Positions 45,661 to 60,621 of a stretch of 64,000 nucleotides of DNA are shown here, one piece after another. The position numbers and the translations under genes are program-made. Numbering within the stretch: the stretch's first letter is position 1; each line of letters begins with the position of its first letter. The stretch is from Acidithiobacillus ferridurans (GTDB lineage: Bacteria > Pseudomonadota > Gammaproteobacteria > Acidithiobacillales > Acidithiobacillaceae): positions 2,187,501 through 2,251,500 of the forward strand of contig NZ_AP018795.1 of NCBI RefSeq assembly GCF_003966655.1, read 5' to 3'. The notes below the pieces were generated by a model, which ran no database searches, was not told the DNA's origin, and saw only the letters and a program-made list of their open reading frames with translations.

Positions 45661-45675
45661 GCAATCTTCATTCCA
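45661..45675 (-). promoter_or_regulatory. Sigma-54 (-24/-12) promoter of fixABCX
   Basis: Read on the minus strand: TGGAATG-AAGA-TTGC. The GG and GC dinucleotides have the required 10-base spacing and the -12 TTGC is exact; two positions of the -24 block differ from TGGCACG. Transcription would start near 45650, 47 bases before the fixA ATG. Confidence 0.7.
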
Positions 45676-45752: not shown

Positions 45753-45768
45753 TGTAGGCTTTGCGACA
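45753..45768. promoter_or_regulatory. NifA-type upstream activating sequence (TGT-N10-ACA)
   Basis: TGTAGGCTTTGCGACA is an exact match to the NifA site. Its centre is about 110 bases upstream of the predicted fixA start site, the usual distance, and about 290 upstream of the globin-side start. A chance match in a region this size is possible (roughly one in seven), but the position relative to two sigma-54 promoters supports function. Confidence 0.6.
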
Positions 45769-46022
45769 AAATGCATGCTTTATCACGGTAAACTCCATGC
45801 ATCCGCTGGCGCTCTGCGGCGGGATTGGGGAGTGCGCAGGAACTACGGTGGAAGACGAGGGCCTCACTGACCAGCGTCTGATGAACGGTTGCGAAAGGTG
45901 CATGGTTGGAGAGGTTCTTGTTGATGGGACCAGGTCCACAAGAAGGTAACAAAGCGTACAAGATGTTCAATCTCTTACGGGACGATAAAAAATAACCATA
46001 TGATAATATTGCGGTTACATTT

Positions 46023-46037
46023 TGGCGCGGATATTGC
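46023..46037 (+). promoter_or_regulatory. Sigma-54 (-24/-12) promoter of the globin-TonB-ABC operon
   Basis: TGGCGCG-GATA-TTGC differs from the consensus TGGCACG-N4-TTGC at one position only and has exact GG-N10-GC spacing. Transcription would start near 46048, giving a leader of about 140 bases before the globin start. Confidence 0.72.
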
Positions 46038-46187
46038 CTGCCAAAATGTTGTTGCTGTCCCTATCGAACAACGCTATATTCCGATAAACATATCATATTC
46101 GGGGCAGGCTTCTGCGGGTCTCGGTTCGGTTTCGCTGGGGAGGTGCGCGTCGTGCGTCATATCCGGCCATATATGGAGAGGGAGAAA

Positions 46188-46799
46188 ATGAATATGGAAC
46201 AGGAAAGATCTGTCGTCCTGAAGTTGTCCGTTCACAATGACGCTGTCCTCTCGGTACAGGGTCCGCACTGCCCCGGTTCGGAGACGCTGGATATCCGCCG
46301 TTTTGGCGATGAGGATTCCATAGTGCGTCCTGCCATCACCGATATGCATTTCCCCGAAGTGATTTTTCCCACCCGCCGGGTAGGCCGGGTAGCCGGGGTG
46401 GAAAAGGTCCGGGAACTGGTCGTGGAGCACCATCGCCTCATCTGGCATAGCCCGCTACAACCCATCTTCGGCAACAACGAAAAGCATTTCTGGAAGGCCG
46501 TGGAATTGACGGCGGATTTTCATGCAGAAGTCTGCGGCGGCCCCAAGCTCTATACGGAGCGGCGGGGGCGTCCCCATCTGCGCGAACGGCACTTTCCCTT
46601 CACCATCCGGGAGAAGGATCGTGAACTCTGGCTGGATCTCTATGTGCAGGCCCTGCGCAACGTCGCCTTCCCGCTGGAAGTGGCGGAGGAGTACTGGCGC
46701 TGGGTGGAATCTCTGTCCATCCGCATGATCAACCGCCGCACCACCTTCGCGGAACCGGTGCGGGTGCCTTACAGCCAAATCGCCGCACAGTTGGCCTGA
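46188..46799 (+). CDS. Truncated-haemoglobin-like globin with N-terminal extension
   Basis: 203 residues; a globin domain of about 120 residues (75-195) follows an extension of about 70 with no recognised domain. The core reads SPLQPIF, KLYTERRGRPHLRERHFPF (His in RERH is the expected proximal haem ligand) and LWLDLYVQAL, like group II/III truncated haemoglobins. The usual B10 Tyr appears replaced (EHHRLIW), so ligand chemistry may differ. In-frame starts exist at 46143, 46173, 46188 and 46194; GGAGAGGGAG fits 46188 best. It is first behind a sigma-54 promoter and 10 bases before a TonB-receptor gene. Oxygen or NO handling for nitrogenase, or haem-based sensing, is inference. Confidence 0.72.
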   Translation: MNMEQERSVVLKLSVHNDAVLSVQGPHCPGSETLDIRRFGDEDSIVRPAITDMHFPEVIFPTRRVGRVAGVEKVRELVVEHHRLIWHSPLQPIFGNNEKHFWKAVELTADFHAEVCGGPKLYTERRGRPHLRERHFPFTIREKDRELWLDLYVQALRNVAFPLEVAEEYWRWVESLSIRMINRRTTFAEPVRVPYSQIAAQLA

Positions 46800-46809
46800 G
46801 GAGAGAGTC

Positions 46810-49080
46810 ATGCAACATTTAGCGCGCACTGCATTATATATGTCCATAGCCAGCGTGTTGGCCTGCATCCCGTCTACCGATGCCGACGCCGATGGCGCCC
46901 TGCCAAAACTCGGTACCGTAACCGTGGAGGGGCATCAGAAAAATACCCTGGAAAGCCCTGCCAGCGGCGCTGAGCAGGGGGCCACCATCAGCGGCCATGC
47001 ATTGGACATTCTCGGTGGAGCAGGGCAGACCAATCCTTACGCCGCCATCTCCCTTCTGCCGTCGGTCATGGCCCAGAACCCGGATCCCTATGGTCTGGCC
47101 AACGTACCCGGCGGCAACAAGGGTGTGCGCATCCGGGGCGAGCGCAATCCCCACGGAGGGATTGGCACGGTAGAGGGATTACCCTTGTCCGCCGTCAACC
47201 CCGGCCCCGGCGAGCAGTTTCTGTTCGACATGGAAAACATCCGCAGTATCACGCTGTTGGCACCGCCCTTTTCGCCGGACAAACTGGCCGTATTCACCAC
47301 CCAGGGCTATCTCAACAGCCATGTGCTGTGGCCCCGGGCCAAGTTTGGCGGCGAAGTGGATCAGAGCTTTGGATCCTATGATTTTCATCGCAGCTTCATC
47401 CGCCTGGACTCCGGCACCTTACCCACCGGCACCCGCGTCTTCATCTCCGGGTCGTATACCCATGCGGATCAGTGGCGCGGCCCGGGCGCATCGCCGGACT
47501 ATCGCTATAACGGCGAGATCGGGATCAGCCAGGATTTAGGCCGCACCCTGAGCGCCAAGGTTTATGCAGCCTATGGTTCCATGAAGGAGAACAATTATCT
47601 GCCTCTGACCTATACCCAGGCCAGTAATCTGGGGCAGTACTACAATCTCGGCTATAACAGCACACTCACCGGGAATGTCGCCAACGACGTGAATTATTAC
47701 GGATATAACCGGCAGAAATTCCAGGATTACGCGGTATTCGGGGAACTCAACTGGCATCCCGATGATCAGAACACACTCGTTATCAAGCCCTTCTACAGTC
47801 AGGAAAACGGCTATTACCTGCAGGGATTGAGTAATCTGGGAGGAAAGCCGGGCATACGGGACTGGATCATCGACCATTCCCTCTATGGCGTGGTGGCCCA
47901 ATACGACACCCAATGGCATGGTAATCACTTTTCAGTCGGTTACTGGTTTGAAAATCTAACCCCTCCCGGCCCCCCTACGGATTTCAAGATTTATCGCATG
48001 GTCAACGGCCAGCTCGTTTTTGGTGGTTATGGCCTATTGGCCCGCGCTACGGCGAACCACGTCTTCAACAGTCCCTATTTCCAATGGCGGCGGAAGGTCG
48101 GTCCGGTAACGTTTACGGCAGGCGCTCGTTATCTGATGGAGCAAACGCCATCCTTCAGCGTCTACAATACCGCGGGGATTCCTGACGCATCCTATGCCAA
48201 TGCCTTGAATCTGGCCACCTCCATCAATTCAGCCCGCAGTGTGGAAGGTAGAACCTTCTATCAGTGGCTACCTTATTTTTCGGCGGTTTATGCCGTCAAC
48301 CCAGATCTGGACACGGTCTTTGCCTATGGTCGCAATAATGGTGCTCCTGCCTTCAATAGTTGGCCCTCCGTACAAATGAACTTTGCCGCTTTTCAAAAGG
48401 CTGGGGTGACCGCGCAGCGTGCCTGGGATCAACTGGCGCCGGAAACCTCCAACAGTTTCAGTCTGGGGCTCAAATGGCACGAAGCGGCGTGGTATGTGAA
48501 TCCCACCTTCTTTTACGCCACCTATCGCAATAAATATGTGAATGCCTACGACCCGTTGGTGGGTATCAGTTACGATCAGAACGCAGGCATGGGTCGCGCC
48601 TGGGGCTTTGAACTGGCGGCCGGAGCCAAGCTCTGGCATCGGCTATCCGTGTTCAGCAACCTGGCCTATGACCGCGCCTATTTCACTCAGGATCTGCGTA
48701 CCGGCAGCGGCGCGTTCTTGCCTGTTACCGGCTTGCAGTTTCCTGATACCCCACGCTTCATTGGTAGTCTGGGTGCATTATACGAATATGGCCGGTTCAG
48801 TATTGCGCCCACGTTGCAGTATATGGGCAGCCGCTATGCGGATACCCTGCATACCCAACCCGTGCCGGGCTATCTGCTGGCGAACCTGAACATGGGTTAT
48901 CACTGGCGGATTACCCATGTGGGCGAGCTGACGGTGAATCTGAGTATCCTGAACCTCTTCAACCGCCACTATATCGGCCTCATCGACAGTAGTTATTTGA
49001 GCACTGCGGCATCTGGCGGTGCCAGTTTCTATCCCGGCGCGCCCATCACCGTCGCAGGGACGATAGGGCTACGTTTTTAG
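46810..49080 (+). CDS. TonB-dependent outer membrane receptor 1
   Basis: 756-residue precursor with a signal peptide (about 27 residues) and a TonB-box-like LGTVTVEG. A plug domain (about 50-170) contains GVRIRGERNPHGGIGTVEG and EQFLFDMENIRSITLL; a 22-strand barrel follows and ends with a C-terminal Phe (AGTIGLRF). Such receptors import scarce chelated metals, vitamin B12 or other large ligands using proton-motive force through TonB. GAGGAGAGAG precedes the ATG. It is a paralogue of the next gene; the ligand is unknown. It is the second gene after the sigma-54 promoter. Confidence 0.9.
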   Translation: MQHLARTALYMSIASVLACIPSTDADADGALPKLGTVTVEGHQKNTLESPASGAEQGATISGHALDILGGAGQTNPYAAISLLPSVMAQNPDPYGLANVPGGNKGVRIRGERNPHGGIGTVEGLPLSAVNPGPGEQFLFDMENIRSITLLAPPFSPDKLAVFTTQGYLNSHVLWPRAKFGGEVDQSFGSYDFHRSFIRLDSGTLPTGTRVFISGSYTHADQWRGPGASPDYRYNGEIGISQDLGRTLSAKVYAAYGSMKENNYLPLTYTQASNLGQYYNLGYNSTLTGNVANDVNYYGYNRQKFQDYAVFGELNWHPDDQNTLVIKPFYSQENGYYLQGLSNLGGKPGIRDWIIDHSLYGVVAQYDTQWHGNHFSVGYWFENLTPPGPPTDFKIYRMVNGQLVFGGYGLLARATANHVFNSPYFQWRRKVGPVTFTAGARYLMEQTPSFSVYNTAGIPDASYANALNLATSINSARSVEGRTFYQWLPYFSAVYAVNPDLDTVFAYGRNNGAPAFNSWPSVQMNFAAFQKAGVTAQRAWDQLAPETSNSFSLGLKWHEAAWYVNPTFFYATYRNKYVNAYDPLVGISYDQNAGMGRAWGFELAAGAKLWHRLSVFSNLAYDRAYFTQDLRTGSGAFLPVTGLQFPDTPRFIGSLGALYEYGRFSIAPTLQYMGSRYADTLHTQPVPGYLLANLNMGYHWRITHVGELTVNLSILNLFNRHYIGLIDSSYLSTAASGGASFYPGAPITVAGTIGLRF

Positions 49081-49171
49081 AAGCGCGTTATGGTTCAACT
49101 ATACCAACCGCGTGGCTCTACAAAAACCGTCCCTTTCATAGATATCCAGGATAGATGCAGCAGGAGGCATT

Positions 49172-51403
49172 ATGAAAATTAAGGCCGTCATGCGTTACAC
49201 CGTGTACACGCTCATAATGGCCGCAACGGTGAAGTCGAGCCTCGCGTGGGCGGAAGATGGCGCAAACGCCCCAAAGCTCCAAGCCATTACCGTAACGGGG
49301 AGTGGTCAGACGCCCCTCGTGCTGCCGTCCCTGGGTGCAGGCACAGGTGCCACCATCCCCAACTCCAGCTTCGATCTCTTTCAAAGCCCCGGTGGGACCA
49401 ATGCCTATAGCATCGTCAGTGGACTACCCTCGGTCATGGTGCAGACCACGGACCCATACGGCTTGTCCAGTAGCGGCCCTGTAGGCATCAGCATCCGTGG
49501 TGAAACGAGCATCAAAGGGGCCATCGGCACCGTGGAAGGCATTCCCATCTCCGCCATCGATCCGGGAGCGGGCCAACAATTTTTATTCGATAGCGAAAAC
49601 TTGCGGAGCGTCAGCCTCCTGACTCCTCCTTTCGCGCCAGAGCATATTTCCGTATTCACGCAGGAAGGATATCTCAACCGGAACATTCGCTGGGCTGCGG
49701 ATCATTTCGGCGGCGAAGTCTCCCAAAGCGCCGGTTCCTTCGGTTTTCACAAGACCTTTCTGCGTTTGGACTCTGGGCTGCTGGCCACCGGCACCAAGTT
49801 TTTCATTTCATCCTCCTATGCCCATGCCGACGCCTGGCGCGGGAATGGAGCCGCTCCGGATTATCGGTATAACGGGACATTTGGGGTCACCCAGCGGATC
49901 ACCCGTCGGCTCACGGCAAAACTCTTTGCCGTCTACGACGACATGAAGGGCGCCAGCTACCTTCCCCTCAGCTATGCTCAGGCATCCAATCTTGGTGCCA
50001 ATTATAACCTGGGGTACAACGCGAACCCGCAAAGCCTCAATTATTCCGGATACAACCAGCAAAAATTTCAGGACTATGCCTTGATGGGTGAAATTCGCTG
50101 GCGCACGAGTTCCCATGGCACATTGCTCATAAAGCCTTTTTACATTCAGGAAAACGGTTACACCATGGGTACGGGACTTCCGGGAGTAAAACCCAATCAA
50201 ATTGGTTATTGGAGTATCAATCACCATCTGTATGGCGTTCTGGCCAAATATGATTTTCATTATGCCCAGACGAAATTTTCCCTGGGGTACTGGTACGAAA
50301 ACATTCAGCCGCCAGGGCCCCCCACTGCGGTCAAGGCGTTCAATATTGCTCCTGACGGCTTGCAATTTAGCAACTGGACGCCGTTGCTGGTTAATCCTGT
50401 ATCCAACAATGTTTTCAACAGCCCATATTTTCAGGCGAAGCGAGCATTCGGTCCGGTGACGGTCACCGCAGGTGTCCGCTATTTAACGGAACAAATCCCC
50501 ACGCTCAGTGTTTATAACGGCAGCGGGGTGGGAGATGTGTCACCCAGCCAGGCGATCCGTGATGCGGCATTTAAATACACCATCAATGGCCATACGGATT
50601 ATCAATGGCTCCCCTATATCGGTGCACTCTACCGATTCACGCCGCATGTCAGCCTTACCGCTGCGTATGGCCGGGACAATGGGGGCCCTGCTCTGGAGAT
50701 GTGGCCGAAACTGGTGCTGTCCGGAATGCCGGCAGCGGCTGCCCAAAACGCCTGGAACACCACGCGGCCAGGTACGTCCAACGCTTTTTCCCTGGGTCTG
50801 GCCATTACTCATACGCGCTGGTATCTGCGCCCGGATGTGTTTTACACCACCTACAATCATAAGGACATCCCCATCAATGTACCGGGAACGTCCGCATTTT
50901 ATAATCAGAACCTCGGCGTAGGGAAGGCTTGGGGTCTGGAAATCCAGGGCGCCGTCCAGCCGTTGGATGATCTTCAGGTTTTCGGCTCTGCCGCTTACGA
51001 TCGCGCCTACTTCACTCAAAATATCCCCGACGGCCAAACCATCCTTCCAGTCAGCGGATTGCAATTCCCCGATGTTCCAAAATTCCTGGCCACCCTGGGA
51101 CTTCGTTATCGTTATCACCGATTCACGGTCAGCCCGGTTATTCAATACACGGGCCTGCGTTATGCAGATTCATTGCACACTCAGCCGGTGCCGGCCTATT
51201 GCATTACCAATCTGAATTTCGCCTATCATCAGCCGCTACGGCATGTCGGCGAACTAACCGCAAGGCTGCAGTTCCTGAATCTATTCAATCGTCATTATAT
51301 TGGCCTCATCAGCCAAAACTATGTGCAAACCGGAGCCAGTGCGGCGACTTTCTATCCCGGCGCGCCACTGACCGTGGTCGGTTCCTTGGCATTACGATTC
51401 TAA
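49172..51403 (+). CDS. TonB-dependent outer membrane receptor 2
   Basis: 743-residue precursor. The signal peptide ends near SLAWA, then comes the TonB-box-like LQAITVTG. The plug region (GISIRGETSIKGAIGTVEGI, QQFLFDSENLRSVSLLTPPF) and the barrel align closely with receptor 1 throughout, including the last strand (VGSLALRF), so the two arose by tandem duplication. The 91 bases between them contain an AGGAGG ribosome-binding site but no evident terminator. Ligand unknown; divergence of the loops could give two ligand forms. Confidence 0.9.
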   Translation: MKIKAVMRYTVYTLIMAATVKSSLAWAEDGANAPKLQAITVTGSGQTPLVLPSLGAGTGATIPNSSFDLFQSPGGTNAYSIVSGLPSVMVQTTDPYGLSSSGPVGISIRGETSIKGAIGTVEGIPISAIDPGAGQQFLFDSENLRSVSLLTPPFAPEHISVFTQEGYLNRNIRWAADHFGGEVSQSAGSFGFHKTFLRLDSGLLATGTKFFISSSYAHADAWRGNGAAPDYRYNGTFGVTQRITRRLTAKLFAVYDDMKGASYLPLSYAQASNLGANYNLGYNANPQSLNYSGYNQQKFQDYALMGEIRWRTSSHGTLLIKPFYIQENGYTMGTGLPGVKPNQIGYWSINHHLYGVLAKYDFHYAQTKFSLGYWYENIQPPGPPTAVKAFNIAPDGLQFSNWTPLLVNPVSNNVFNSPYFQAKRAFGPVTVTAGVRYLTEQIPTLSVYNGSGVGDVSPSQAIRDAAFKYTINGHTDYQWLPYIGALYRFTPHVSLTAAYGRDNGGPALEMWPKLVLSGMPAAAAQNAWNTTRPGTSNAFSLGLAITHTRWYLRPDVFYTTYNHKDIPINVPGTSAFYNQNLGVGKAWGLEIQGAVQPLDDLQVFGSAAYDRAYFTQNIPDGQTILPVSGLQFPDVPKFLATLGLRYRYHRFTVSPVIQYTGLRYADSLHTQPVPAYCITNLNFAYHQPLRHVGELTARLQFLNLFNRHYIGLISQNYVQTGASAATFYPGAPLTVVGSLALRF

Positions 51404-51415
51404 AGGGAGCATGTC

Positions 51416-52069
51416 ATGGAGGTTTTATTCCACCTTGCCGCCGTATCCGGGGGTATTCTTTATCTGATGCCGCTTCTGTTGCTGGCGGTACTTTTCGTGG
51501 CCTTGGAGCGAGGCTGGGCGTTGGCCATGATCCGGCGCAAGGGCGACGATCTGTTACGCGATCTGCAAAACAGAAAAGGCCGAGAATCCCTGGAAACGGA
51601 ACTGGCCAAGACGCCGTTCTGCCCGCAACAGGCCGTATTCGCAGCGGTTCTCGCATCCCATGATCTGGCAAGTGGCGAAGCCTACGCCGAGGAGGCGATG
51701 CTGGCCCAGGCGACCTTGCTGGACCGGGGCTTATGGATTCTGGATACGGCAGTCACCCTGGCACCTCTACTCGGCCTGCTAGGTACCATCATCGGGATGT
51801 TCAATGCCTTTCAGATATTGGGTAATCCGGATACCGCGCCAACGGCCATTACCGGTCATGTGGCGGAAGCCCTGGTGGCCACGGCAACGGGTTTGGCCAT
51901 TGCCATTGTGGGCCTGGTGTTTTTTAACGGACTTCAGCAACGGGTCCGTCTGGTGCTGCATCAGATGGAAAGGATCGAGGTGAGCACCCTGAATCGTCTC
52001 TACCGACAGCCTGTCAGGACCCATGGAGATGCCTCTGTCAGCCTGCTGGCACGGCGAGGGGAGGTCTGA
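51416..52069 (+). CDS. exbB: ExbB/TolQ-family proton channel
   Basis: 217-residue membrane protein of the MotA/TolQ/ExbB family. The first membrane helix is YLMPLLLLAVLFVALERGWA. The second and third lie in the family block ILDTAVTLAPLLGLLGTIIG and TGLAIAIVGLVFFN. With ExbD it energises TonB. It follows receptor 2 after 12 bases with AAGGGAG upstream and sits directly before exbD. Confidence 0.93.
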   Translation: MEVLFHLAAVSGGILYLMPLLLLAVLFVALERGWALAMIRRKGDDLLRDLQNRKGRESLETELAKTPFCPQQAVFAAVLASHDLASGEAYAEEAMLAQATLLDRGLWILDTAVTLAPLLGLLGTIIGMFNAFQILGNPDTAPTAITGHVAEALVATATGLAIAIVGLVFFNGLQQRVRLVLHQMERIEVSTLNRLYRQPVRTHGDASVSLLARRGEV

Positions 52070-52070
52070 G

Positions 52071-52466
52071 ATGCGTTATTTCGAGGCCCGCAAGGGGCGT
52101 ATCGAGATCATTCCCATGATCGACATCATGCTTTTTCTGCTGGTGTTCTTCATCATGATCACCTTGCGCATGATTCCCGCGACAGGGATCAGCACCCGCT
52201 TGCCGACCAGCAGCAACGCCCAGGTTTTGCCCAAAACGCCTCTGGTGGTGGAGTTGCGCAGCGACGGCCGTCTGCTTTTTCACGATAAAGCGGTGACGCT
52301 GACCCAACTGGAGCAGCAGTTGGCCCAAAACTACGCCAATCACCCGCAGGTCATCCTGGCGGGCGCGAAAAATGTGACTCTGCAGCAGTTGGTGACCGTC
52401 ATGGACGCCTGCCGCCACGCCGGCATCAGCCAGATGGGCATCGCTACCCGTGCGGGGCGGCCGTGA
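52071..52466 (+). CDS. exbD: ExbD/TolR-family protein
   Basis: 131-residue protein with one N-terminal membrane helix: EIIPMIDIMLFLLVFFIMIT, where the conserved Asp (MID) is the proton-carrying residue. The periplasmic domain follows with LVVELRSDGRLLFHDKAVTL. ATG 52071 comes after GGGGAGG; a longer frame from 52023 runs inside exbB. The GTGA overlap with tonB indicates coupling. Confidence 0.93.
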   Translation: MRYFEARKGRIEIIPMIDIMLFLLVFFIMITLRMIPATGISTRLPTSSNAQVLPKTPLVVELRSDGRLLFHDKAVTLTQLEQQLAQNYANHPQVILAGAKNVTLQQLVTVMDACRHAGISQMGIATRAGRP

Positions 52467-53200
52467 GCACTCTGGCGCTCCCCTCCAGCCCGCAGCCGCC
52501 CAGGGCCGTGGTTTTTCTGCTGGCCCTGATCCTGGAGTCGGGCATTCTGGCGGTTCTGGCCGTCTGGATGCGGGCATCTCCTCTACCCACGCCGGTGATC
52601 ACCCCGCCCATGGCGGTCCAACTGGTTTCCTGGCCGCAGCCCAGCGCCACCCCACAACCCACCCCTCACCCGCCAGCACCCCGGACCGCCGCGTCGATAC
52701 CGCGAAAACCCGTTCCCACCCCGCCCAAGCTGTCGCCAAGACCGCCGCGAGAGGCCAAAGTGCCGGTCCGCACCCCGCTCTCGGCACCGAGTGCGCTGGC
52801 GGCAACTGCAGCCCCATCCACAATCTCCCGGATGCCCGCACCGGTGACATCTGCCGCAGCCACGCCTGCCACACCCGCTTTACCTCCATCCGCTCCCGCT
52901 CCGGCGGCGGAAACCCGCCCCAGCATCCCTGCCTATGTCCACAACCCCGCACCGGAGTATCCCCAGTCGGCGCGTTGGGATGGGGAAGAGGGCACCGTAC
53001 TGCTGCGGGTGCTGGTCAACGTGTCCGGCCTGCCGGAAAAAATAACGGTAGCCCACAGTTCCGGCTATACCAGCCTGGATCGCGCGGCCGAAAAGGCCGT
53101 GCGGCACTGGCGCTTCACCCCCGGCACCCGCGACGGGAAACCAGTGGCCATGCAGGTGGAAGTCCCGATTCGTTTTCGTCTGACGGACGCCAACCCATGA
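52463..53200 (+). CDS. tonB: TonB energy-transducing protein
   Basis: 245 residues. An N-terminal membrane anchor (about 14-37), then a Pro- and Ala-rich periplasmic spacer (about 45-155, with PPKLSPRPPREAKVP), then a C-terminal TonB domain with PAPEYPQSARWDGEEGTVLL and AAEKAVRHWRFTPGTRDGKP. It carries energy from ExbBD to the receptors. The start is GTG 52463, overlapping the exbD stop; the end overlaps the ATPase gene. The dedicated TonB system next to two receptors suggests a specialised substrate. Confidence 0.93.
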   Translation: MSTLALPSSPQPPRAVVFLLALILESGILAVLAVWMRASPLPTPVITPPMAVQLVSWPQPSATPQPTPHPPAPRTAASIPRKPVPTPPKLSPRPPREAKVPVRTPLSAPSALAATAAPSTISRMPAPVTSAAATPATPALPPSAPAPAAETRPSIPAYVHNPAPEYPQSARWDGEEGTVLLRVLVNVSGLPEKITVAHSSGYTSLDRAAEKAVRHWRFTPGTRDGKPVAMQVEVPIRFRLTDANP

Positions 53201-54747
53201 TGCTGCGTGCTGCGCATTTGGCCTATGCCCATGGCCATCGCATGGTCCTGGAAGATGTCTCCCTGCAGTTGAATGCCGGAGAGTCGGTGGCCCTGCTTGG
53301 GGCAAACGGCAGCGGCAAAAGCACCCTCATTCGTCTGCTTCTCGGCATCCTGAAACCGCTGAGGGGCGAGATTCGCCTTCGCGATAGCGACTTGCATGCC
53401 CTATCGGCCAAAGAGCGGGCGCAACGACTGGCTTATGTACCCCAGGACCATGGCGTGGTCTTTCCCTTCCTGGTGCGAGACGTGGTGCTCATGGGCCGCC
53501 TGCCCCACCAATCCTGGCTGGGGGTTGCCAGTGCCCATGATCGGGAGCAGGCGGAAGCGGCGCTCGCCCGGCTGGGTATCAGCGGTCTTGCGGAGCGCTC
53601 CTACATGGAACTGAGCGGGGGTCAGCGGCAACTGGTCATCATCGCCCGCGCATTGGCCCAGGAGACACCGATACTGATTCTCGATGAGCCGGTAACCGGG
53701 CTGGATTATGGCAATCAACATCGCCTGATGGCGCAGATCCAGGACTTGGCGGACAGCGGTTATGCCATCCTTCAGAGCAGTCATTATCCGGAACACGCTC
53801 TTTCCACGGCAAACCGGGTCATTCTGCTGAAGGATGGGCGGGTGCTGGCTGACGGTCCTCCGATAGAGGTGCTTCATCCGCAACACCTACGCGCACTTTA
53901 CGATATAGACACGGAGTGCCTCGAAACCAGCGACGGTCGCCGCGTTATCTTGCCTAAAGCGCTTTCTTCCGCCCTGTCCCAGAGCAGACGCGGAGCCTGT
54001 TTGAACCTGTCTTCTGAGGAATATCCCATGACCCATACTTTACACATTTTTGCCTCCCTCACATTGGCGGAACCTTTTCAGGAAATCATCCAGGGCTTTA
54101 CCAGCGCCCACCCGGATGTCTCTGTGAAACCCACCTATGGTTTTTGCGGTGCGTTGATGGAACAAATGGCGGCGGGTGCGTCCGTCGATGTGTTTGCCCC
54201 CTCTTCGGAGCCCATGCTGGCAAAGGCTGCGGCGCAGGGGTTCGTGCAGACCGATACGGCGGTGAACTATGCACGGAATCGGCTCGTACTCGTCAGTTTG
54301 ATGAGGGATTATCCGCTGGCGCCCAAGCTCGAAGCGCTCATGGAAGAGCGCTATGCGCGCATTGCCATTGGTGATCCAGAATCGGTTCCGCCCGGACGTT
54401 ATGCGCGCATGGCGCTGGAAAAGGCTGGGTTGTGGCAAGACCTGGAAGCGCGCATGCAGAAATACCCCGATGGTCTCCAACCCCTGCAAGCGGTGCTGGA
54501 GGGAAATGCGGATGCGGCCTTTGTTTTTGCCTCGACGGCCAACAGCGCATCGGGAAAAGTCCATATCGTGGATATTCCAGTCGGCGTTTCCATGCATTAT
54601 CCCGTGGCGGTGACGACCAAGAGCGCAGAACCAGAACTGGCCCGCGCTTTTGTCGTCTATCTGCAGACGGACGCTGCACAGAAAGTCCTGGAAATTACGG
54701 GTTTCGCGCCCGCCCTCAGCGCTCAGCCGCTGCTGAACGCTTTCTGA
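53197..54747 (+). CDS. FecE/MolC-type ABC ATPase fused to a ModA-like domain
   Basis: 516 residues in one uninterrupted frame. Residues 1-255 are an ABC ATPase: Walker A LLGANGSGKST, Q-loop PQDHG, signature LSGGQRQL, Walker B ILILDEPVTGLD, switch His in QSSHYPEH; it resembles siderophore, cobalamin and MolBCA molybdate transporters. A linker of about 22 residues leads to residues 278-516, a ModA-like binding domain (HIFASLTLAEPFQEI; GASVDVFAPSSEPML; ARNRLVLVS) lacking a signal peptide. Tethered to the ATPase it would be cytoplasmic, suggesting a substrate sensor. An internal ATG (54028) with GAGGA upstream could also yield the second part alone. ATG 53197 overlaps the tonB stop; ATG 53200 is an alternative. 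Confidence 0.85.
   Translation: MMLRAAHLAYAHGHRMVLEDVSLQLNAGESVALLGANGSGKSTLIRLLLGILKPLRGEIRLRDSDLHALSAKERAQRLAYVPQDHGVVFPFLVRDVVLMGRLPHQSWLGVASAHDREQAEAALARLGISGLAERSYMELSGGQRQLVIIARALAQETPILILDEPVTGLDYGNQHRLMAQIQDLADSGYAILQSSHYPEHALSTANRVILLKDGRVLADGPPIEVLHPQHLRALYDIDTECLETSDGRRVILPKALSSALSQSRRGACLNLSSEEYPMTHTLHIFASLTLAEPFQEIIQGFTSAHPDVSVKPTYGFCGALMEQMAAGASVDVFAPSSEPMLAKAAAQGFVQTDTAVNYARNRLVLVSLMRDYPLAPKLEALMEERYARIAIGDPESVPPGRYARMALEKAGLWQDLEARMQKYPDGLQPLQAVLEGNADAAFVFASTANSASGKVHIVDIPVGVSMHYPVAVTTKSAEPELARAFVVYLQTDAAQKVLEITGFAPALSAQPLLNAF
54014..54030 (+). promoter_or_regulatory. Possible internal translation start of the ModA-like part
   Basis: GAGGA (54014-54018) lies nine bases before ATG 54028, which begins exactly where ModA homology begins (MTHTLHIFASLTLAEPF). 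It would give a free 239-residue protein, 54028-54747, in the same frame as the fusion. Since no stop codon separates the two parts, both a fusion and a free domain are possible products. Confidence 0.45.
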
Positions 54748-54766
54748 AAGTCAAGGAGAACACGAC

Positions 54767-55807
54767 ATGTTGAATACTTTGCCAGGCAAATGGCGTTTAT
54801 CTATTGCGGCGTTGGGCGCCAGCCTCTTGCTCTCATTGCCCTCGTGGGCGGCCACGGCCCCTACCCAACTCCCGCCCCACAGTGTTTACGGCACCGCGCC
54901 GCCAGTGACCCTGCTGATTTACAGTCTCGCCCCGGATTTGCTGGCCGGGTGGAATTTCCCGCTGAATAAAATGGCGGGCCTGGGCATGAGTACGAATTCC
55001 AAGTACCTCTTGCCGGCTACGCGCAATCTGCCGGTACTGGGTGGCTGGGACCCCGGCGACAAACCGGAGCTGGAACGTGTGCTCGCCATTCATCCCAAGC
55101 TGGCCTTGCTCTGGGCGCCTTACCTGGATGATGCCCGCCTGCGTAGCGAGTTACAGCGCATCGATGTGCCCACGCTGACCGTCAATCTGCAAAGTCTGAA
55201 CGACTATCCGGCCGCATACCGTCTGCTGGGAGATCAGTTGGGGCAAGGCGCGCGCGGTGAGGAACTGGCCACGGCCTTTCAAAATATTTTGAGTCGCCTT
55301 AAGGACTTGCGCAGCACCATTCCACAGGCACAGCGCCAGACAGTCTATTACGCGGAAGGCGTGGATGGCCTGATGACCGACACGGCGAATTCTCCCCATA
55401 CCGAAGTGATCCGTGCCGCAGGCGGTGATAACGTCTTTACCGGCAAGGCGACGGCACTGAAGGGGATGGAACGGGTGAGTATGGGGCAGGTGCTGGCCTG
55501 GAATCCCGACGTGATTCTGGTGCAGGACCCGGTGTTTTACCGGCGCGTGTATAGCCTTCCGGCCTGGCAGGGCCTCCAGGCGGTAAAAGCACATCGGGTT
55601 TACCTGGTGCCCCGGCAGCCTTTTAACTGGATGGATCGTCCACCTTCCTTCATGCAGGGCTTGGGGGCTCTCTGGCTCGCGCACGTGTTGTATCCGCAGG
55701 CATTCAAAATCCATCTGAATCAGGAGATACAGGACTTCTTCAAGACATTTCTGCAGGTCAACGTGAGCAAGGCGCAGGCGCAGGCGCAGGCGATGTGGCG
55801 CCCGTGA
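54767..55807 (+). CDS. Periplasmic binding protein of FecB/BtuF/MolA type
   Basis: 346-residue precursor with a signal peptide (cut probably after PSWAA, about residue 29). The two-lobed class III binding fold is visible in VLGGWDPGDKPELERVLAIHPKLALLW, LTVNLQSLNDYPAAYRLLGD and GMERVSMGQVLAWNPDVILVQ. Such proteins bind ferric siderophores, haem, cobalamin or, in the MolA branch, molybdate and tungstate. It has a strong AAGGAG. It overlaps the permease gene. A short AQ repeat (CAGGCG units, 55771-55792) encodes the C-terminus. Confidence 0.88.
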   Translation: MLNTLPGKWRLSIAALGASLLLSLPSWAATAPTQLPPHSVYGTAPPVTLLIYSLAPDLLAGWNFPLNKMAGLGMSTNSKYLLPATRNLPVLGGWDPGDKPELERVLAIHPKLALLWAPYLDDARLRSELQRIDVPTLTVNLQSLNDYPAAYRLLGDQLGQGARGEELATAFQNILSRLKDLRSTIPQAQRQTVYYAEGVDGLMTDTANSPHTEVIRAAGGDNVFTGKATALKGMERVSMGQVLAWNPDVILVQDPVFYRRVYSLPAWQGLQAVKAHRVYLVPRQPFNWMDRPPSFMQGLGALWLAHVLYPQAFKIHLNQEIQDFFKTFLQVNVSKAQAQAQAMWRP

Positions 55808-56829
55808 GGATAACGGCACTACCAGAGTCGGCCAGGAGGCTGACTTTACCACTGTTGCTCTTGCTTCTGGCCGCCATGGCGGTGCTGGAGATGTCCTGGG
55901 GGCACTACCCGCTGTCCTGGCTGCAATTCTGGCAATGGCTGCGGGGCAGCCCTTTGTTGGCGCCGGACAAAGCCATGCAGATCCATTTGTTGATGGTGGA
56001 GATCCGCCTGCCGCGCCTCTCCGTGGCGATCCTCGTGGGTGCGGCGCTGGCGGCCAGTGGTACCGTCTTTCAGGCGGTGTTCCGCAACCCGCTGGCGGCC
56101 CCAGATATTCTGGGCGTCATGGCAGGAGCCGCCTTCGGGGGCGCCTTGGGCATCATCCTGGGCGGTCCCTGGTGGACGATACAGATGGCGGCCTTTGTTT
56201 TTGGGCTGATCGCCGTGGCGATGGCTTACCTGATCGCCCGCCATTTTCCGGGGCAGCCCACTCTGATGCTGGTGATTGGCGGCATCCTGGCCGGAGCCTT
56301 GTTTACCGCACTGCTTTCCCTGGTGAAATATGCCGCCGATCCGTACCAGCAGCTACCCAGTATCGTTTTCTGGTTGATGGGCAGTCTTTCCAACGTGCCC
56401 CTGCGCCAGATACCCTACTTCGCCCTGCCGGTTTTTGCCGGGATCGCGCTGTTGATGTTGCAAGGGCATCGCCTCGATGCCCTCAGTCTGGGGGACGAGG
56501 AAGCACACAGTCTTGGTCTGCCAGTGCGCCAGATCCGTTTGCTGGTCATCGTGCTCGCAACGTTGTTGGCGGCCATGGCGGTGATGATGGCGGGGATGAT
56601 CGGCTGGATCGGGCTCATCATCCCCCATCTGGGACGTCTGCTGCTCGGGCCGGGCAACCGCCGTCTGTTGCTGGGAAGCAGTATTCTCGGTGCCGCGTAC
56701 CTTTTGCTCGCAGACGCCCTGGCCCGCAATCTGTTCTCCGTGGATGTTCCGGTGGGCGTATTTGCGGAACTTCTGGGGGTGCCAGCGTTTTTGCTGGTGC
56801 TCCGGCAGATACGGAAGGCGTGGGTCTGA
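55795..56829 (+). CDS. FecCD-family ABC transporter permease
   Basis: 344-residue polytopic permease, about ten hydrophobic segments, of the FecCD/BtuC/MolB family. Motifs include VEIRLPRLSVAILVGAALAA, GTVFQAVFRNPLAAPDILGV, FWLMGSLSNVP and GMIGWIGLIIPHLGRLLLGP (the coupling region). One gene is expected to form a homodimer. GTG 55795 and GTG 55804 are both possible starts, inside the end of the binding-protein gene. It is the last gene of the plus-strand series that begins at the globin gene. Confidence 0.92.
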   Translation: MAPVRITALPESARRLTLPLLLLLLAAMAVLEMSWGHYPLSWLQFWQWLRGSPLLAPDKAMQIHLLMVEIRLPRLSVAILVGAALAASGTVFQAVFRNPLAAPDILGVMAGAAFGGALGIILGGPWWTIQMAAFVFGLIAVAMAYLIARHFPGQPTLMLVIGGILAGALFTALLSLVKYAADPYQQLPSIVFWLMGSLSNVPLRQIPYFALPVFAGIALLMLQGHRLDALSLGDEEAHSLGLPVRQIRLLVIVLATLLAAMAVMMAGMIGWIGLIIPHLGRLLLGPGNRRLLLGSSILGAAYLLLADALARNLFSVDVPVGVFAELLGVPAFLLVLRQIRKAWV

Positions 56830-56891: not shown

Positions 56892-58103
56892 TCACTCGGC
56901 GTGCGCTGGGAGAGGGAGGGGCTCGTCAATCACCAGTGTCACTCCCGCCGCCGAGAGCAATGCCTCCAGGGCCGGTTCCAACTGCCCGGCGCGCATGTGA
57001 ATTTCGTCCGCCCCCTGGGCGATGAGCCATGCCGCCAGCCGTATGCCGCGCCCTTTTTCGGCGCCGGGTACGGGGTTGTTCAGGGTTTGGGTATTCACCA
57101 GGACACCTTCGTGGTTTTCGTCCTCAAAACGAATACGCTGCGCCATGCCAAAGCGCGTGGCCAGCGCCGATCCCTCCTCGGTCAGAAGGAATGCCCGCCT
57201 TTTATAGGGCTTGAAGGGCGGCTCATAATGAAGCGTGATGTTTTCCAGCTCGGGGAACGCCTCTTGCAGACGTTGCTGGGCGCGGTCGGCTACTTCATGG
57301 GCGTGCGCGAAGTTCGCCGCGGCGATACCGATGGTGGCGTCCGCGAACAGGACACTCCCGGCATGGCGCAGACGCAGTCCCTCCACGGTTTCCACTTCCG
57401 GCGTGGTCAGCAGCAGATTTTTCGCCTTCGCGTACAGTTCGGATTCCACCGAGGCGTCCAGCAGGGAGAGGATGGCGTTTTTCAGCACCCCCCAGGTGCC
57501 CTCCAGAATCAGGAAGAGGATGATGAGGACGGCAATCTCCTGGGCAAAGGGTATCCGCAAGAGATGCCCGCCGATTCCGGCGATGACCACGACACCGGCG
57601 CCGATATCGCCCAGCCAGTTGACCACATCGCTTTGTAGTCCGGGGGAGTGGAGGCGGGCGGCGGCGCGTCGTTCGAAAACATAAAAAATCCCCTCGGCCA
57701 CCAGAACGACCGTCATGAACCCCATGGTGGCCAAGGGATTGTCAGGTGGCCGCGCACCGCCGGAGAAAAACACCGCGCGGGCGATCTCATAGGCGGCAAT
57801 GACGACCAGCAAGGCACCGCCCAGGGCAGCCATGTCCTCCACCTTATGGAGACCGTACGGAAACCGCAAGGAGCGGTGGCGGGAAAAGCGGATGGCCGCA
57901 AGGATGAGCAGGGCGCCCAATACATCGGAAATGCTATGCACGGCGTCGGCGATGACGACGGTGCTGCCGGAATAAACGCCCCAGCCGATTTTTGCTATGG
58001 AAAGCAGGCCATTGAGCCCCGTCGATGCCATCATCCAACGGGATTTCTGCCGTTCCGCCAGGTCAGAGGGGGTGGTTTTTTTCGGTGTATCCATCGCCTC
58101 CAT
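56892..58103 (-). CDS. Cation diffusion facilitator transporter with C-terminal NifX/FeMo-co-binding-like domain
   Basis: 403 residues from ATG 58103 (ATGs at 58094 and 58151 are alternatives). CDF membrane part, about 20-215: metal site A would be HSISD in helix 2 and NWLGD in helix 5 (HxxxD plus NxxxD, not a standard set for one metal). A ZT-dimer-like cytoplasmic domain follows (about 215-298), then about 95 residues with TRFGMAQRIRFEDENH, NPVPGAEKGRGIRLAAWLIA and a GADEIHMRAGQLEPALEAL helix, like the dinitrogenase FeMo-cofactor-binding (NifX/NifB C-terminal) fold. It lies 74 bases after the porin gene, convergent with the uptake operon. A link between metal transport and cofactor metal is inference. 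Confidence 0.82.
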   Translation of the reverse strand: MEAMDTPKKTTPSDLAERQKSRWMMASTGLNGLLSIAKIGWGVYSGSTVVIADAVHSISDVLGALLILAAIRFSRHRSLRFPYGLHKVEDMAALGGALLVVIAAYEIARAVFFSGGARPPDNPLATMGFMTVVLVAEGIFYVFERRAAARLHSPGLQSDVVNWLGDIGAGVVVIAGIGGHLLRIPFAQEIAVLIILFLILEGTWGVLKNAILSLLDASVESELYAKAKNLLLTTPEVETVEGLRLRHAGSVLFADATIGIAAANFAHAHEVADRAQQRLQEAFPELENITLHYEPPFKPYKRRAFLLTEEGSALATRFGMAQRIRFEDENHEGVLVNTQTLNNPVPGAEKGRGIRLAAWLIAQGADEIHMRAGQLEPALEALLSAAGVTLVIDEPLPLPAHAE

Positions 58104-58177
58104 GGTCCCCGTCTGCCCAGCCTCCGGCAATGATACCTTAATGCAGTCCATCTTCCACGCATCATCTATGATCGGCG

Positions 58178-59506
58178 CTAAAACTTGTACGTCATCATCA
58201 CTCGGTTGTACACAAAGGAGTGTTGTCCTGAGCCCGGAAACAGTCCGACCGCACCACCATTCCCCACCTCCACCTGATCCCGTAAACACAGTCCCTTAAA
58301 CATGCCTTGGGGGAAATAGCTCACGTTAAAGTGGGTCCAGTTGCTGTTCCCCGAAAAATAGGTAGTGAATTGTGAGTAGCCTGCAGTCAGTTGGACTTGC
58401 TCAGGCAGCACCCAGTAAGCGGCCCGCACCCGCCAGCCATGACCCGGACCCACGCCGACCAGGCCCTGCATCATGCTATTCACATACAGCGGGTCTGCTG
58501 TATAGCCGATGGTATAGGGAGAAATAATGGCGCCGCCGCCCAAGGCGTGAGCATGCAATTCTGTAGCATCATAACCCCACCACAGACTTCCGTGAGGAAA
58601 TGCGATGCCGGTCTTGATACCCCAGTTGGTACTGTTGACGCCCTGGCCCGGTTGCCCGAAAAGCGTAGTGGCGGTATTGGCAAAGGTCTCTCCGGCACCC
58701 CATTCCCGGGTGAATTGCGCATCCACAAAGGGCTTGAGGACGAAGGATGTCGGCAGGGCGTAGTGACCGTTCCAGTAGAACATGTTGGCGAATTGATCAA
58801 ACTGATAAAACCAGGCGGCGGTTTCTGCGTGATATGCGTGATATTGGGCGCCAAAGGCGAGCGCTCCGTTGGTGGGTGGGGTACCGGCGGGTAGCACGTT
58901 GGGTCCGCCATAGAGGGAGTCACCCTCATAGTGGCCGGGATAATAGAGGTTATCCCGGTAGAACTGGTCGGTGGTGCGGTCTTTCCAGCGGAAAATCCGC
59001 AGCGCGCTGAGTTGCACGCCGCGGAAGGGATGGGCCTCCAGGGTTACTCCCTGATAGGTGACGGGGATCACCCGCCCACCGACCCGGTTTAGCCAGGGGG
59101 TATCTACCAACTGATTGCCTGCCTTGGCGGTGATCCATTTGTCCTGATATTCCAGATAGGCCTGACCCAGTGCATTGACGGAAGGACTGGTACCCATGAG
59201 GGTCTTGTCGATCCGGGCCGGATTGCTGGGCTGTGTGCCGAGAGCATTGGCGGTGTAAAAACTGACGCCGATACGGAAGCCCGAGAGAAAGGGCGCGGTG
59301 ACGACGTTGATGCGTCCGGCCAGGGAGTAGGCATACGCATTGACGGTGTTGGGGGTGCCATAGAGGCGACTGAAGTAATAGGAACGGATTTGTCCATCAA
59401 TATGACTTTTCGCAAAAAACTGGGACAGGGTTTCGGCGTGGGCACTGGCGTTGAAGGCACCCATCAGGCTGGCTGCTGTCATCAGATGAAGGATGTTTTT
59501 CTGCAT
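58178..59506 (-). CDS. Outer membrane porin, OprD-like
   Basis: 442-residue precursor with a signal peptide (cut probably after ASAHA, residue 23) and a beta-barrel rich in aromatic residues, ending with Phe (VMMTYKF). The start of the mature chain, LSQFFAKSHIDGQIRSYYFSRLYG, and the mid-barrel AFGAQYHAYHAETAAWFYQ resemble OprD-family substrate-specific porins. It lies between the WtpA-type binding protein and the CDF gene in the same orientation, so it may admit the same oxoanion or metal. AGGAGC precedes the ATG. Confidence 0.8.
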   Translation of the reverse strand: MQKNILHLMTAASLMGAFNASAHAETLSQFFAKSHIDGQIRSYYFSRLYGTPNTVNAYAYSLAGRINVVTAPFLSGFRIGVSFYTANALGTQPSNPARIDKTLMGTSPSVNALGQAYLEYQDKWITAKAGNQLVDTPWLNRVGGRVIPVTYQGVTLEAHPFRGVQLSALRIFRWKDRTTDQFYRDNLYYPGHYEGDSLYGGPNVLPAGTPPTNGALAFGAQYHAYHAETAAWFYQFDQFANMFYWNGHYALPTSFVLKPFVDAQFTREWGAGETFANTATTLFGQPGQGVNSTNWGIKTGIAFPHGSLWWGYDATELHAHALGGGAIISPYTIGYTADPLYVNSMMQGLVGVGPGHGWRVRAAYWVLPEQVQLTAGYSQFTTYFSGNSNWTHFNVSYFPQGMFKGLCLRDQVEVGNGGAVGLFPGSGQHSFVYNRVMMTYKF

Positions 59507-59671: not shown

Positions 59672-60595
59672 TTATTTCAGTACGTCACCCTTGGGTGGGT
59701 TGTAGCCGGTCTCTTTGAACATGGTCTGTCCCTGGGGACTGGTCATGAAGTGGATAAAGGCCATGCCCAGTTGGGGATCGGGCGCGTCCACAGGTACTGC
59801 CGCATAAAAGACCAGCGGCTGGGTGTGGACGGTTTTGGGTTTGCCATCCACATTCAGGGTGAAGTGGACTTTGCTGTACCAGTCTTTGACCATGGCCGGA
59901 TTGCTGAGATTGATCTGATCGGGCAGAGTGATATAAGGCAGATGCAGGGATTTTACCGCGCTGAGATAACCCGATGAGGCGGCCATCTGCCCACTCTTGA
60001 GGCGGGAAAGCAACGACGCCTCCGTGAATATCTGCCGGGGGTTCTCGACCGCTCCGAGGACTTTGTTCACTAGATCCGGTTGGTGGTAATACCTTTCCGC
60101 CAGCATGAAGGTGAAGACGATATTTTGCCCTTGGGGGTCGGTTTTGGGATCGGTGCGGCCGAAGACCACCCCCGGCTTCTGCAGGATTTTATACCACGGC
60201 ACCTTGCCCTCCGCAGCTTCCTTGAAATCTTTGGCGTAGGGGCTGCTGGGACTATAAGCGATGCACATGGCTGTACTGGCGACCGGGAAGGCCTCCTTGA
60301 CCAGGCCGGCCTTGATCAGCACCTCGATGGGGCCGGGGGTGATGGAGACAAAAACGTCAGTGCGCAGTTTGTGGGCGGCGATGAGCCGGGCGAGGCCATA
60401 AGCGCCCTGGCCCTCCCCCTGATATTGCACATTATGGGCTTTGGCGAAGGCCGGTCCAAGATGCAGGTCCATGACGGTACCCATGGAGCCTGCGTAAGCG
60501 ACATGCAGGTCTTTGGCCATGGCCTGGAGCGATAAACCCAGCAGGCTGGCGGCGACGATCAGCGCAAGGGAACTTTGATGGTGACGGTGTTTCAC
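59672..60595 (-). CDS. WtpA/ModA-type periplasmic oxoanion-binding protein
   Basis: 307-residue precursor with a signal peptide ending near LQAMA. The mature part has LHVAYAGSMGTVMDLHLGPA, the phosphate-loop-like site of tungstate/molybdate-binding WtpA proteins, plus YQGEGQGAYGLARLI, DVFVSITPGPIEVL, FGRTDPKTDPQGQN and a C-terminal FIHFMTSPQGQTMFKETGY. GTG 60595 is chosen with AGGAG upstream; the 48-residue upstream extension lacks conservation. No wtpBC or modBC permease/ATPase is adjacent, so its partner may lie elsewhere. Molybdate or tungstate is the expected ligand, but sulfate-like anions are possible. Confidence 0.85.
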   Translation of the reverse strand: MKHRHHQSSLALIVAASLLGLSLQAMAKDLHVAYAGSMGTVMDLHLGPAFAKAHNVQYQGEGQGAYGLARLIAAHKLRTDVFVSITPGPIEVLIKAGLVKEAFPVASTAMCIAYSPSSPYAKDFKEAAEGKVPWYKILQKPGVVFGRTDPKTDPQGQNIVFTFMLAERYYHQPDLVNKVLGAVENPRQIFTEASLLSRLKSGQMAASSGYLSAVKSLHLPYITLPDQINLSNPAMVKDWYSKVHFTLNVDGKPKTVHTQPLVFYAAVPVDAPDPQLGMAFIHFMTSPQGQTMFKETGYNPPKGDVLK

Positions 60596-60621
60596 GTGCT
60601 CTACTCCTGTGGTTTGCGAAA

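Follow-up and report, generated by a model that had tools for sequence, protein, structure and literature searches.

In a 64,000-nucleotide window (bases 2187501–2251500) of the 2.92 Mb single-contig genome of Acidithiobacillus ferridurans (G000 in our genome set), nine plus-strand genes adjoin fixABCX. They encode a globin, two TonB-dependent receptors (TBDR1 and TBDR2), ExbB, ExbD, TonB, an ATP-binding cassette (ABC) ATPase joined to a ModA-like domain, a solute-binding protein (SBP) and a FecCD-family permease. Judging from their sequences, the nine genes probably constitute a single NifA-activated sigma-54 operon for TonB-dependent molybdenum import of the MolBC type, made together with the products of nif and fixABCX.

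The promoter region contains the following elements (window positions; basis in parentheses):

46023..46037, plus strand: −24/−12 sigma-54 promoter TGGCGCGGATATTGC, one mismatch to TGGCACN5TTGC, GG-N10-GC spacing (five-genome alignment)
45964..45979, plus strand: NifA-type box TGTTCAATCTCTTACG (TGT-N10-ACR) of the operon promoter (alignment of upstream regions)
45753..45768, strand unassigned: NifA-type box TGTAGGCTTTGCGACA between fixA and gloA, 93 bp above the fixA −24 element (exact TGT-N10-ACA)
45661..45675, minus strand: fixA −24/−12 site TGGAATGAAGATTGC, 72 bp ahead of the fixA ATG (sequence comparison)

The genes downstream of it are:

46188..46799, plus strand: gloA, truncated globin related to Hell's Gate globin IV, with a His-His motif and the proximal His (domain search, alignment)
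46810..49080, plus strand: TBDR1, TonB-dependent outer-membrane receptor (domain search; intact in five operons)
49172..51403, plus strand: TBDR2, a paralogue of TBDR1 (52%) (domain search, genome comparison)
51416..52069, plus strand: ExbB (PF01618)
52071..52466, plus strand: ExbD (PF02472); a longer open reading frame (ORF) begins at 52023
52463..53200, plus strand: TonB, with N-terminal hydrophobic segment, proline-rich linker and C-terminal domain (read from the sequence only; orthologs in relatives)
53197..54747, plus strand: ABC ATPase (about 53197–54000) in frame with the ModA-like domain (domain search)
54028..54747, plus strand: ModA-like domain with its own start and Shine-Dalgarno sequence, without signal peptide, Cys40 (family search, alignment)
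54767..55807, plus strand: type-II SBP of the MolA clade, with signal peptide (domain search, tree)
55795..56829, plus strand: FecCD-family permease, MolB being its closest solved relative (domain search, pairwise comparison)

A conserved promoter and activator box

The near-consensus −24/−12 site named in the original prediction is present, and transcription would start at about 46048. By itself such a motif is no evidence, since about seven chance sites are expected per 64 kb: 9 one-mismatch sites were found in the window versus 7.1 expected. The site is, however, conserved. A TGG-N8-TTGC sequence lies 161–165 bp ahead of the gloA ATG in all five nif-bearing genomes that possess the operon (G000, G006, G008, G010 and G014), and each has a TGT-N10-ACR box 59–60 bp upstream of this promoter, with an exact ACA end in three relatives and an ACG variant in G000 and G006. 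A promoter and a box so spaced arise in 0.17% (G000) and 0.03% (G014) of dinucleotide shuffles of 400 bp. The five species are related and hence not independent, while the sequence between and around the promoter elements does vary. In the nif-less relative G005, neither the −24/−12 promoter nor the NifA box occurs upstream of gloA, the start of which is broken. Because promoter and box are kept in the five nif-bearing genomes and are jointly missing in G005, control of the operon by NifA and sigma-54 is likely, as had been proposed from the promoter.

The activator itself is encoded in the genome (NifA, 705 bits). The same kind of promoter, together with two such NifA-type boxes, precedes nifH, whose box TGTAGGCTTTCAAACA is resembled by the TGTAGGCTTTGCGACA box between fixA and gloA, and the −24/−12 sequence of fixA is identical in G010 and G014. 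In G006 (A. ferrianus), where fixA and gloA are about 2.3 kb apart (L029, 10728–13022), gloA still has its promoter and NifA box. As for ModE, the genome holds just a 127-amino-acid ModE-like helix-turn-helix (HTH) protein that scores under cut-off.

Gene content, continuity and setting

The gene set, order and spacing of the predicted run were all recovered: nine plus-strand genes up to 56829, with gaps of at most 91 bp and several overlaps. Domain searches identified Bac_globin, two TonB-dependent barrels, ExbB, ExbD, an ABC ATPase and SBP_bac_11/ModA in one ORF, Peripla_BP_2 and FecCD. All parts of a TonB-dependent system are present, namely beta-barrel receptors, ExbB, ExbD and TonB; the receptor barrels are clear, while no plug domain was reported by Pfam at 0.001. 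For the globin, the ATG at 46188 is the most likely start, rather than the GTG at 46143. From gloA to the permease gene, the junctions are gaps of 10, 91, 12 and 1 bp, two overlaps of 4 bp, a gap of 19 bp and an overlap of 13 bp. Inside the run, 12 terminator-like hairpins were counted versus 11.0 ± 3.3 in shuffled sequence, which is background level and agrees with the predicted lack of an internal terminator. No plus-strand sigma-70 match was found there either.

Divergence from fixABCX was likewise borne out, with fixA, fixB, fixC and fixX located on the opposite strand and Fer4_ETF_QO found in the fixX ORF. The nifH gene lies about 34 kb from the operon (genome bases 2268346–2269170, minus strand), and nifN, nifX and the genes for a NifX-associated protein, NifQ, NifA, ModD and Mop follow within the next 40 kb. 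Convergent to the operon, a cation-diffusion facilitator (56892–58289) shows a weak C-terminal nitrogenase-cofactor-binding-like domain (PF02579, under cut-off).

Distribution among Acidithiobacillus genomes

TBDR1 is intact in each of the five operons. TBDR2 is truncated by an internal deletion in G010 and G014 and is absent from G006. In G014 there are in addition a second ABC cassette with a third receptor, and the ModA-like gene stands on its own. The operon core seems to consist of gloA, TBDR1, ExbBD-TonB and one set of SBP, FecCD permease and ATPase. The G005 locus (L032, 9500–13200) contains exbBD-tonB, SBP, FecCD and ATPase genes and two globins, the first broken and the second at 51%, and may be a relic or a repurposed operon.

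Molybdenum as the probable substrate

The best solved matches of the SBP are 4pag, for which the match states no ligand, and MolA (3psa). In the SBP tree, it falls into a clade of 25 members (99/98 support) together with MolA, 4pag and molybdenum-associated homologs, which come from Alphaproteobacteria and other groups; 22 controls taken from its Pfam family all fall outside. In pairwise comparison the permease scores 218 bits with MolB versus 157 with a heme and 122 with a B12 permease, and MolC is the best solved match of the ATPase. The permease tree was set aside as proof of kinship with MolB, its base being unresolved.

The neighborhoods of homologous binding proteins point in the same direction. 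In a test that drew evenly from 398 Pseudomonadota genomes, three of seven SBP homolog loci had a molybdenum marker within about 7 kb, versus none of 33 control loci (p = 0.0035). Further homologs adjoin, at one locus each, ModA and a TOBE/Mop protein; Glp and Mop; Glp, Mop and ModA; MoeA; ModA; and MsrPQ. At L088 (2993–8602), a ModE-like regulator (HTH and two TOBE domains) diverges from genes for a TonB receptor, DUF2478, SBP, FecCD and ATPase, which makes it a candidate ModE-controlled TonB molybdenum system. Hand inspection found receptors beside SBP homologs at L085 and L086 as well; the receptors of these three loci have no similarity to TBDR1 or TBDR2 detectable by tblastn. Genes for LLM-class flavin oxidoreductases recur near molybdenum or TonB-ABC cassettes at L067, L068, L123 and L124.

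Relatives of TBDR1 itself also occur in such settings. In the nif-less Acidithiobacillus G001, a relative (31%) has modC, modA and modB downstream in the same orientation; the receptor at this locus (L069, contig 78, 2–3534) is present as a fragment. In Methylosinus sp. C49 and Methylocystis, SBP, FecCD and ATPase genes lie downstream of TBDR1 relatives in an operon, and the closest relative in M. trichosporium OB3b (38%) adjoins STN/sigma-70/FecR genes. Receptor relatives of 34–35% in G001 (contig 11), G005, G009 and G016 adjoin a two-domain ABC-F-like ATPase and were discarded as uninformative.

On account of the SBP clade, the homolog neighborhoods and the receptor-modCAB operon, molybdenum is the best-supported substrate. 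The original prediction had named it as the leading candidate and had counted the ModA-like domain in its favor. This domain, however, has no export signal, and a Cys replaces a molybdate-liganding Ser. No ModB above cut-off is encoded in the genome. We rejected the idea that this absence complements the operon: among the six nif-bearing genomes that lack the operon, ModB occurs in two, too few for a test, and our own genome has a WtpBC-like pair.

The ModA-like domain

The ModA-like part scores 124.9 bits with TIGR01256 (cut-off 62.5) and matches ModA structures in the PDB. It has no signal peptide: in G000, G006 and G014 its sequence starts straight with the mature domain, and no hydrophobic segment is found at its N-terminus or at the junction with the ATPase. 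The three intact copies all have Cys at position 40 (YGFCG), where ordinary ModA proteins have Ser, mostly within FAASG or FGGSG (rows from minus-strand loci were left out of the oxyanion-site alignment). In P. aeruginosa ModA, a lobe-A Thr hydrogen-bonds the oxyanion, its equivalence to Cys40 being given by alignment alone (PMC9171197). In G000 and G006, the domain is in frame with the ATPase and, as it also has an ATG and a GAGGA ribosome-binding sequence of its own, may be made fused as well as separately; it is a separate gene in G014 and has decayed in G010. Among the collected genomes, a scan for relatives returned A. ferrianus only. Since the 398 genomes and the plasmids searched gave just ordinary ModAs of 28–36% identity, the form with Cys seems restricted to Acidithiobacillus.

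Given the missing export signal and the Cys replacing the Ser of the molybdate site, it is unlikely that this part is the periplasmic molybdate binder proposed in 2008. A bolder idea, which we regard as unlikely, is that a cytoplasmic ModA-derived ATPase domain senses internal molybdenum via its Cys oxyanion site and closes the TonB-MolBC importer, itself a dedicated, NifA-run TonB route that brings in chelated molybdenum in acid surroundings. If true, substrate feedback on an ABC importer would run through a domain of a new kind.

The globin

Hell's Gate globin IV (4nk1, 157 bits; comparison source PMC4476040) is the nearest relative of GloA, which bears the EHH and RHF motifs with the His-His pair and the proximal His; the G014 row was left out of the alignment. 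Searching 398 Pseudomonadota genomes at 1e-15 returned our own genome alone. The single plasmid homolog, on Paraburkholderia pBN1 (L068, 5878–6507), lies between nifQ and modBAC; because the aligned proximal His is missing, any heme binding may be atypical. The likeliest role of GloA would be to deliver oxygen, or to protect from it, while nitrogen is being fixed. A second truncated globin (Bac_globin; L058, 14434–14823) is encoded in the nif region, with counterparts about 17–20 kb from nifH on the same contig in several nif-bearing relatives.

Proposed function and its alternatives

We propose that NifA and sigma-54 would switch on the operon together with fixABCX and nif during low-oxygen nitrogen fixation. 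The ligand of TBDR1, and of TBDR2 where present, would be molybdenum in some external form, most likely molybdate in complex with a chelator, and the operon's own ExbB-ExbD-TonB would supply proton-motive force for its passage through the receptor into the periplasm. There, the MolA-type SBP would take it over for delivery to a class-II importer of the MolBC type, made up of the FecCD permease and the ATPase. GloA would buffer or deliver oxygen around nitrogenase, and the ModA-like part, most likely cytoplasmic, could be an oxyanion trap, a sensor or a decaying remnant.

Several observations weigh against this proposal. The operon is missing from six nif-bearing relatives, and G005, without nifH, retains relatives of ExbBD-TonB, SBP, FecCD and ATPase, so the import module is not strictly bound to nitrogenase. 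MolA forms a long branch in the SBP tree, and the base of the permease tree leaves the Acidithiobacillus permeases unplaced relative to MolB. H. influenzae MolBC-A is described in the available text as a low-affinity molybdate system (PMC4031551). The automatic scan saw no molybdenum marker at four of the seven genomic SBP homologs, one of which later proved to adjoin ModE. Finally, a sub-threshold WtpBC-like permease/ATPase pair is encoded elsewhere in the genome, and together with a WtpA-like protein it may form a separate oxyanion route. The pair (L075, 972–2808) has no binding-protein gene seen alongside and could work with the chromosomally distant protein encoded at 59672–60598; the latter had been called WtpA in the original prediction, a name not upheld by its scores, which lie under the curated WtpA cut-offs.

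Closest to the published view is an importer that is bifunctional or serves iron first, its receptors taking up ferric, possibly molybdenum-loaded, siderophores for nitrogenase under Fur and NifA. We consider this possible, though rather unlikely. The available text of the 2008 papers provides for it a Fur box predicted upstream of gloA (PMC2621215), two receptors with differing predicted siderophore affinity and a proposed bifunctionality for iron and molybdenum (PMC2631029, PMC2621215); in our data, TBDR1 and TBDR2 weakly match siderophore and PqqU/CntO/FoxA receptors, and a conserved AT-rich element with a GATAATATTATA-like core lies 10–40 bp above the −24 element. However, the SBP clade and the neighbors of its homologs indicate molybdenum, and the Fur box is only a prediction in that text. 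Acid habitats are iron-rich, too, though equally so for the other TonB systems of this species. That the cargo might instead be a corrinoid, heme or another organic chelate, with nif adjoining by chance, is very improbable: BtuF, BtuC, heme and F420-0 transporters do figure among the NCBIfam models matched by SBP, permease and ATPase, but all scores are under the curated cut-offs, mostly far under, the SBP stands apart from the 22 controls, and an Rfam search of 41–63 kb gave neither a B12 riboswitch nor any other match.

A different objection concerns transcription. Internal promoters might run the TonB and ABC genes regardless of nitrogen, sigma-54 governing gloA alone or perhaps TBDR1 as well, and both the 91 bp between the two receptor genes and the retention of exbB-exbD-tonB in G005, though its sigma-54 site is gone, would suit such a division. 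With seven of eight junctions at most 19 bp or overlapping, and with neither a plus-strand sigma-70 match nor surplus terminators inside the run, we think it unlikely and favor co-transcription of the nine genes.

Relation to described systems

The original prediction held that no TonB-dependent molybdenum system wired in this way had been described. This does not stand, as the orthologous locus of A. ferrooxidans (AFE1482-1495) had appeared in 2008 as a predicted Fe-Mo transporter dedicated to nitrogenase (Osorio et al., PMC2631029; PMC2621215). The available text of that account agrees with ours in locus, gene types (gloA, two receptors, TonB system, ABC genes, ModA-like protein), the setting beside fixABCX and nif, and the proposed function. 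It differs in proposing, besides the Fur box, GloA as an oxygen sensor and a periplasmic ModA-like protein, and sigma-54/NifA control does not figure in it. Relative to 2008, the NifA promoter, the MolA placement and a ModA-like part without signal peptide and with Cys for Ser are new. Our literature search found no experimental test of the 2008 proposal.

Among other known systems, H. influenzae MolBC-A is alike as a class-II importer with an SBP of the same clade and with MolB and MolC as best solved matches, whereas the available text mentions no TonB receptor, ExbBD-TonB or nif control (PMC4031551). A described diazotroph system shares a TonB receptor, an ABC importer and mod genes; as far as its available description goes, by which alone it is set apart, it includes neither a globin nor ExbBD-TonB. 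Globin-like genes occur in the nif clusters of Herbaspirillum seropedicae and Burkholderia, in H. seropedicae with a putative NifA-regulated promoter and molybdenum uptake genes in the cluster, while no TonB receptor operon is described there in the available text (PMC3093359).

Implications

TonB-dependent molybdenum uptake has been suggested before; we know of no experimental proof. A putatively NifA-controlled set of receptor, energy module and MolA-type importer, in a genome without ModB above cut-off, would make this question directly testable. In very acid water, molybdate is protonated and binds ferric iron, and the operon would bear on how a diazotroph living there may obtain the molybdenum for its nitrogenase. 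Receptors linked to modCAB or to ModE in operons of other bacteria suggest that the idea of TonB-dependent molybdenum uptake extends beyond Acidithiobacillus.

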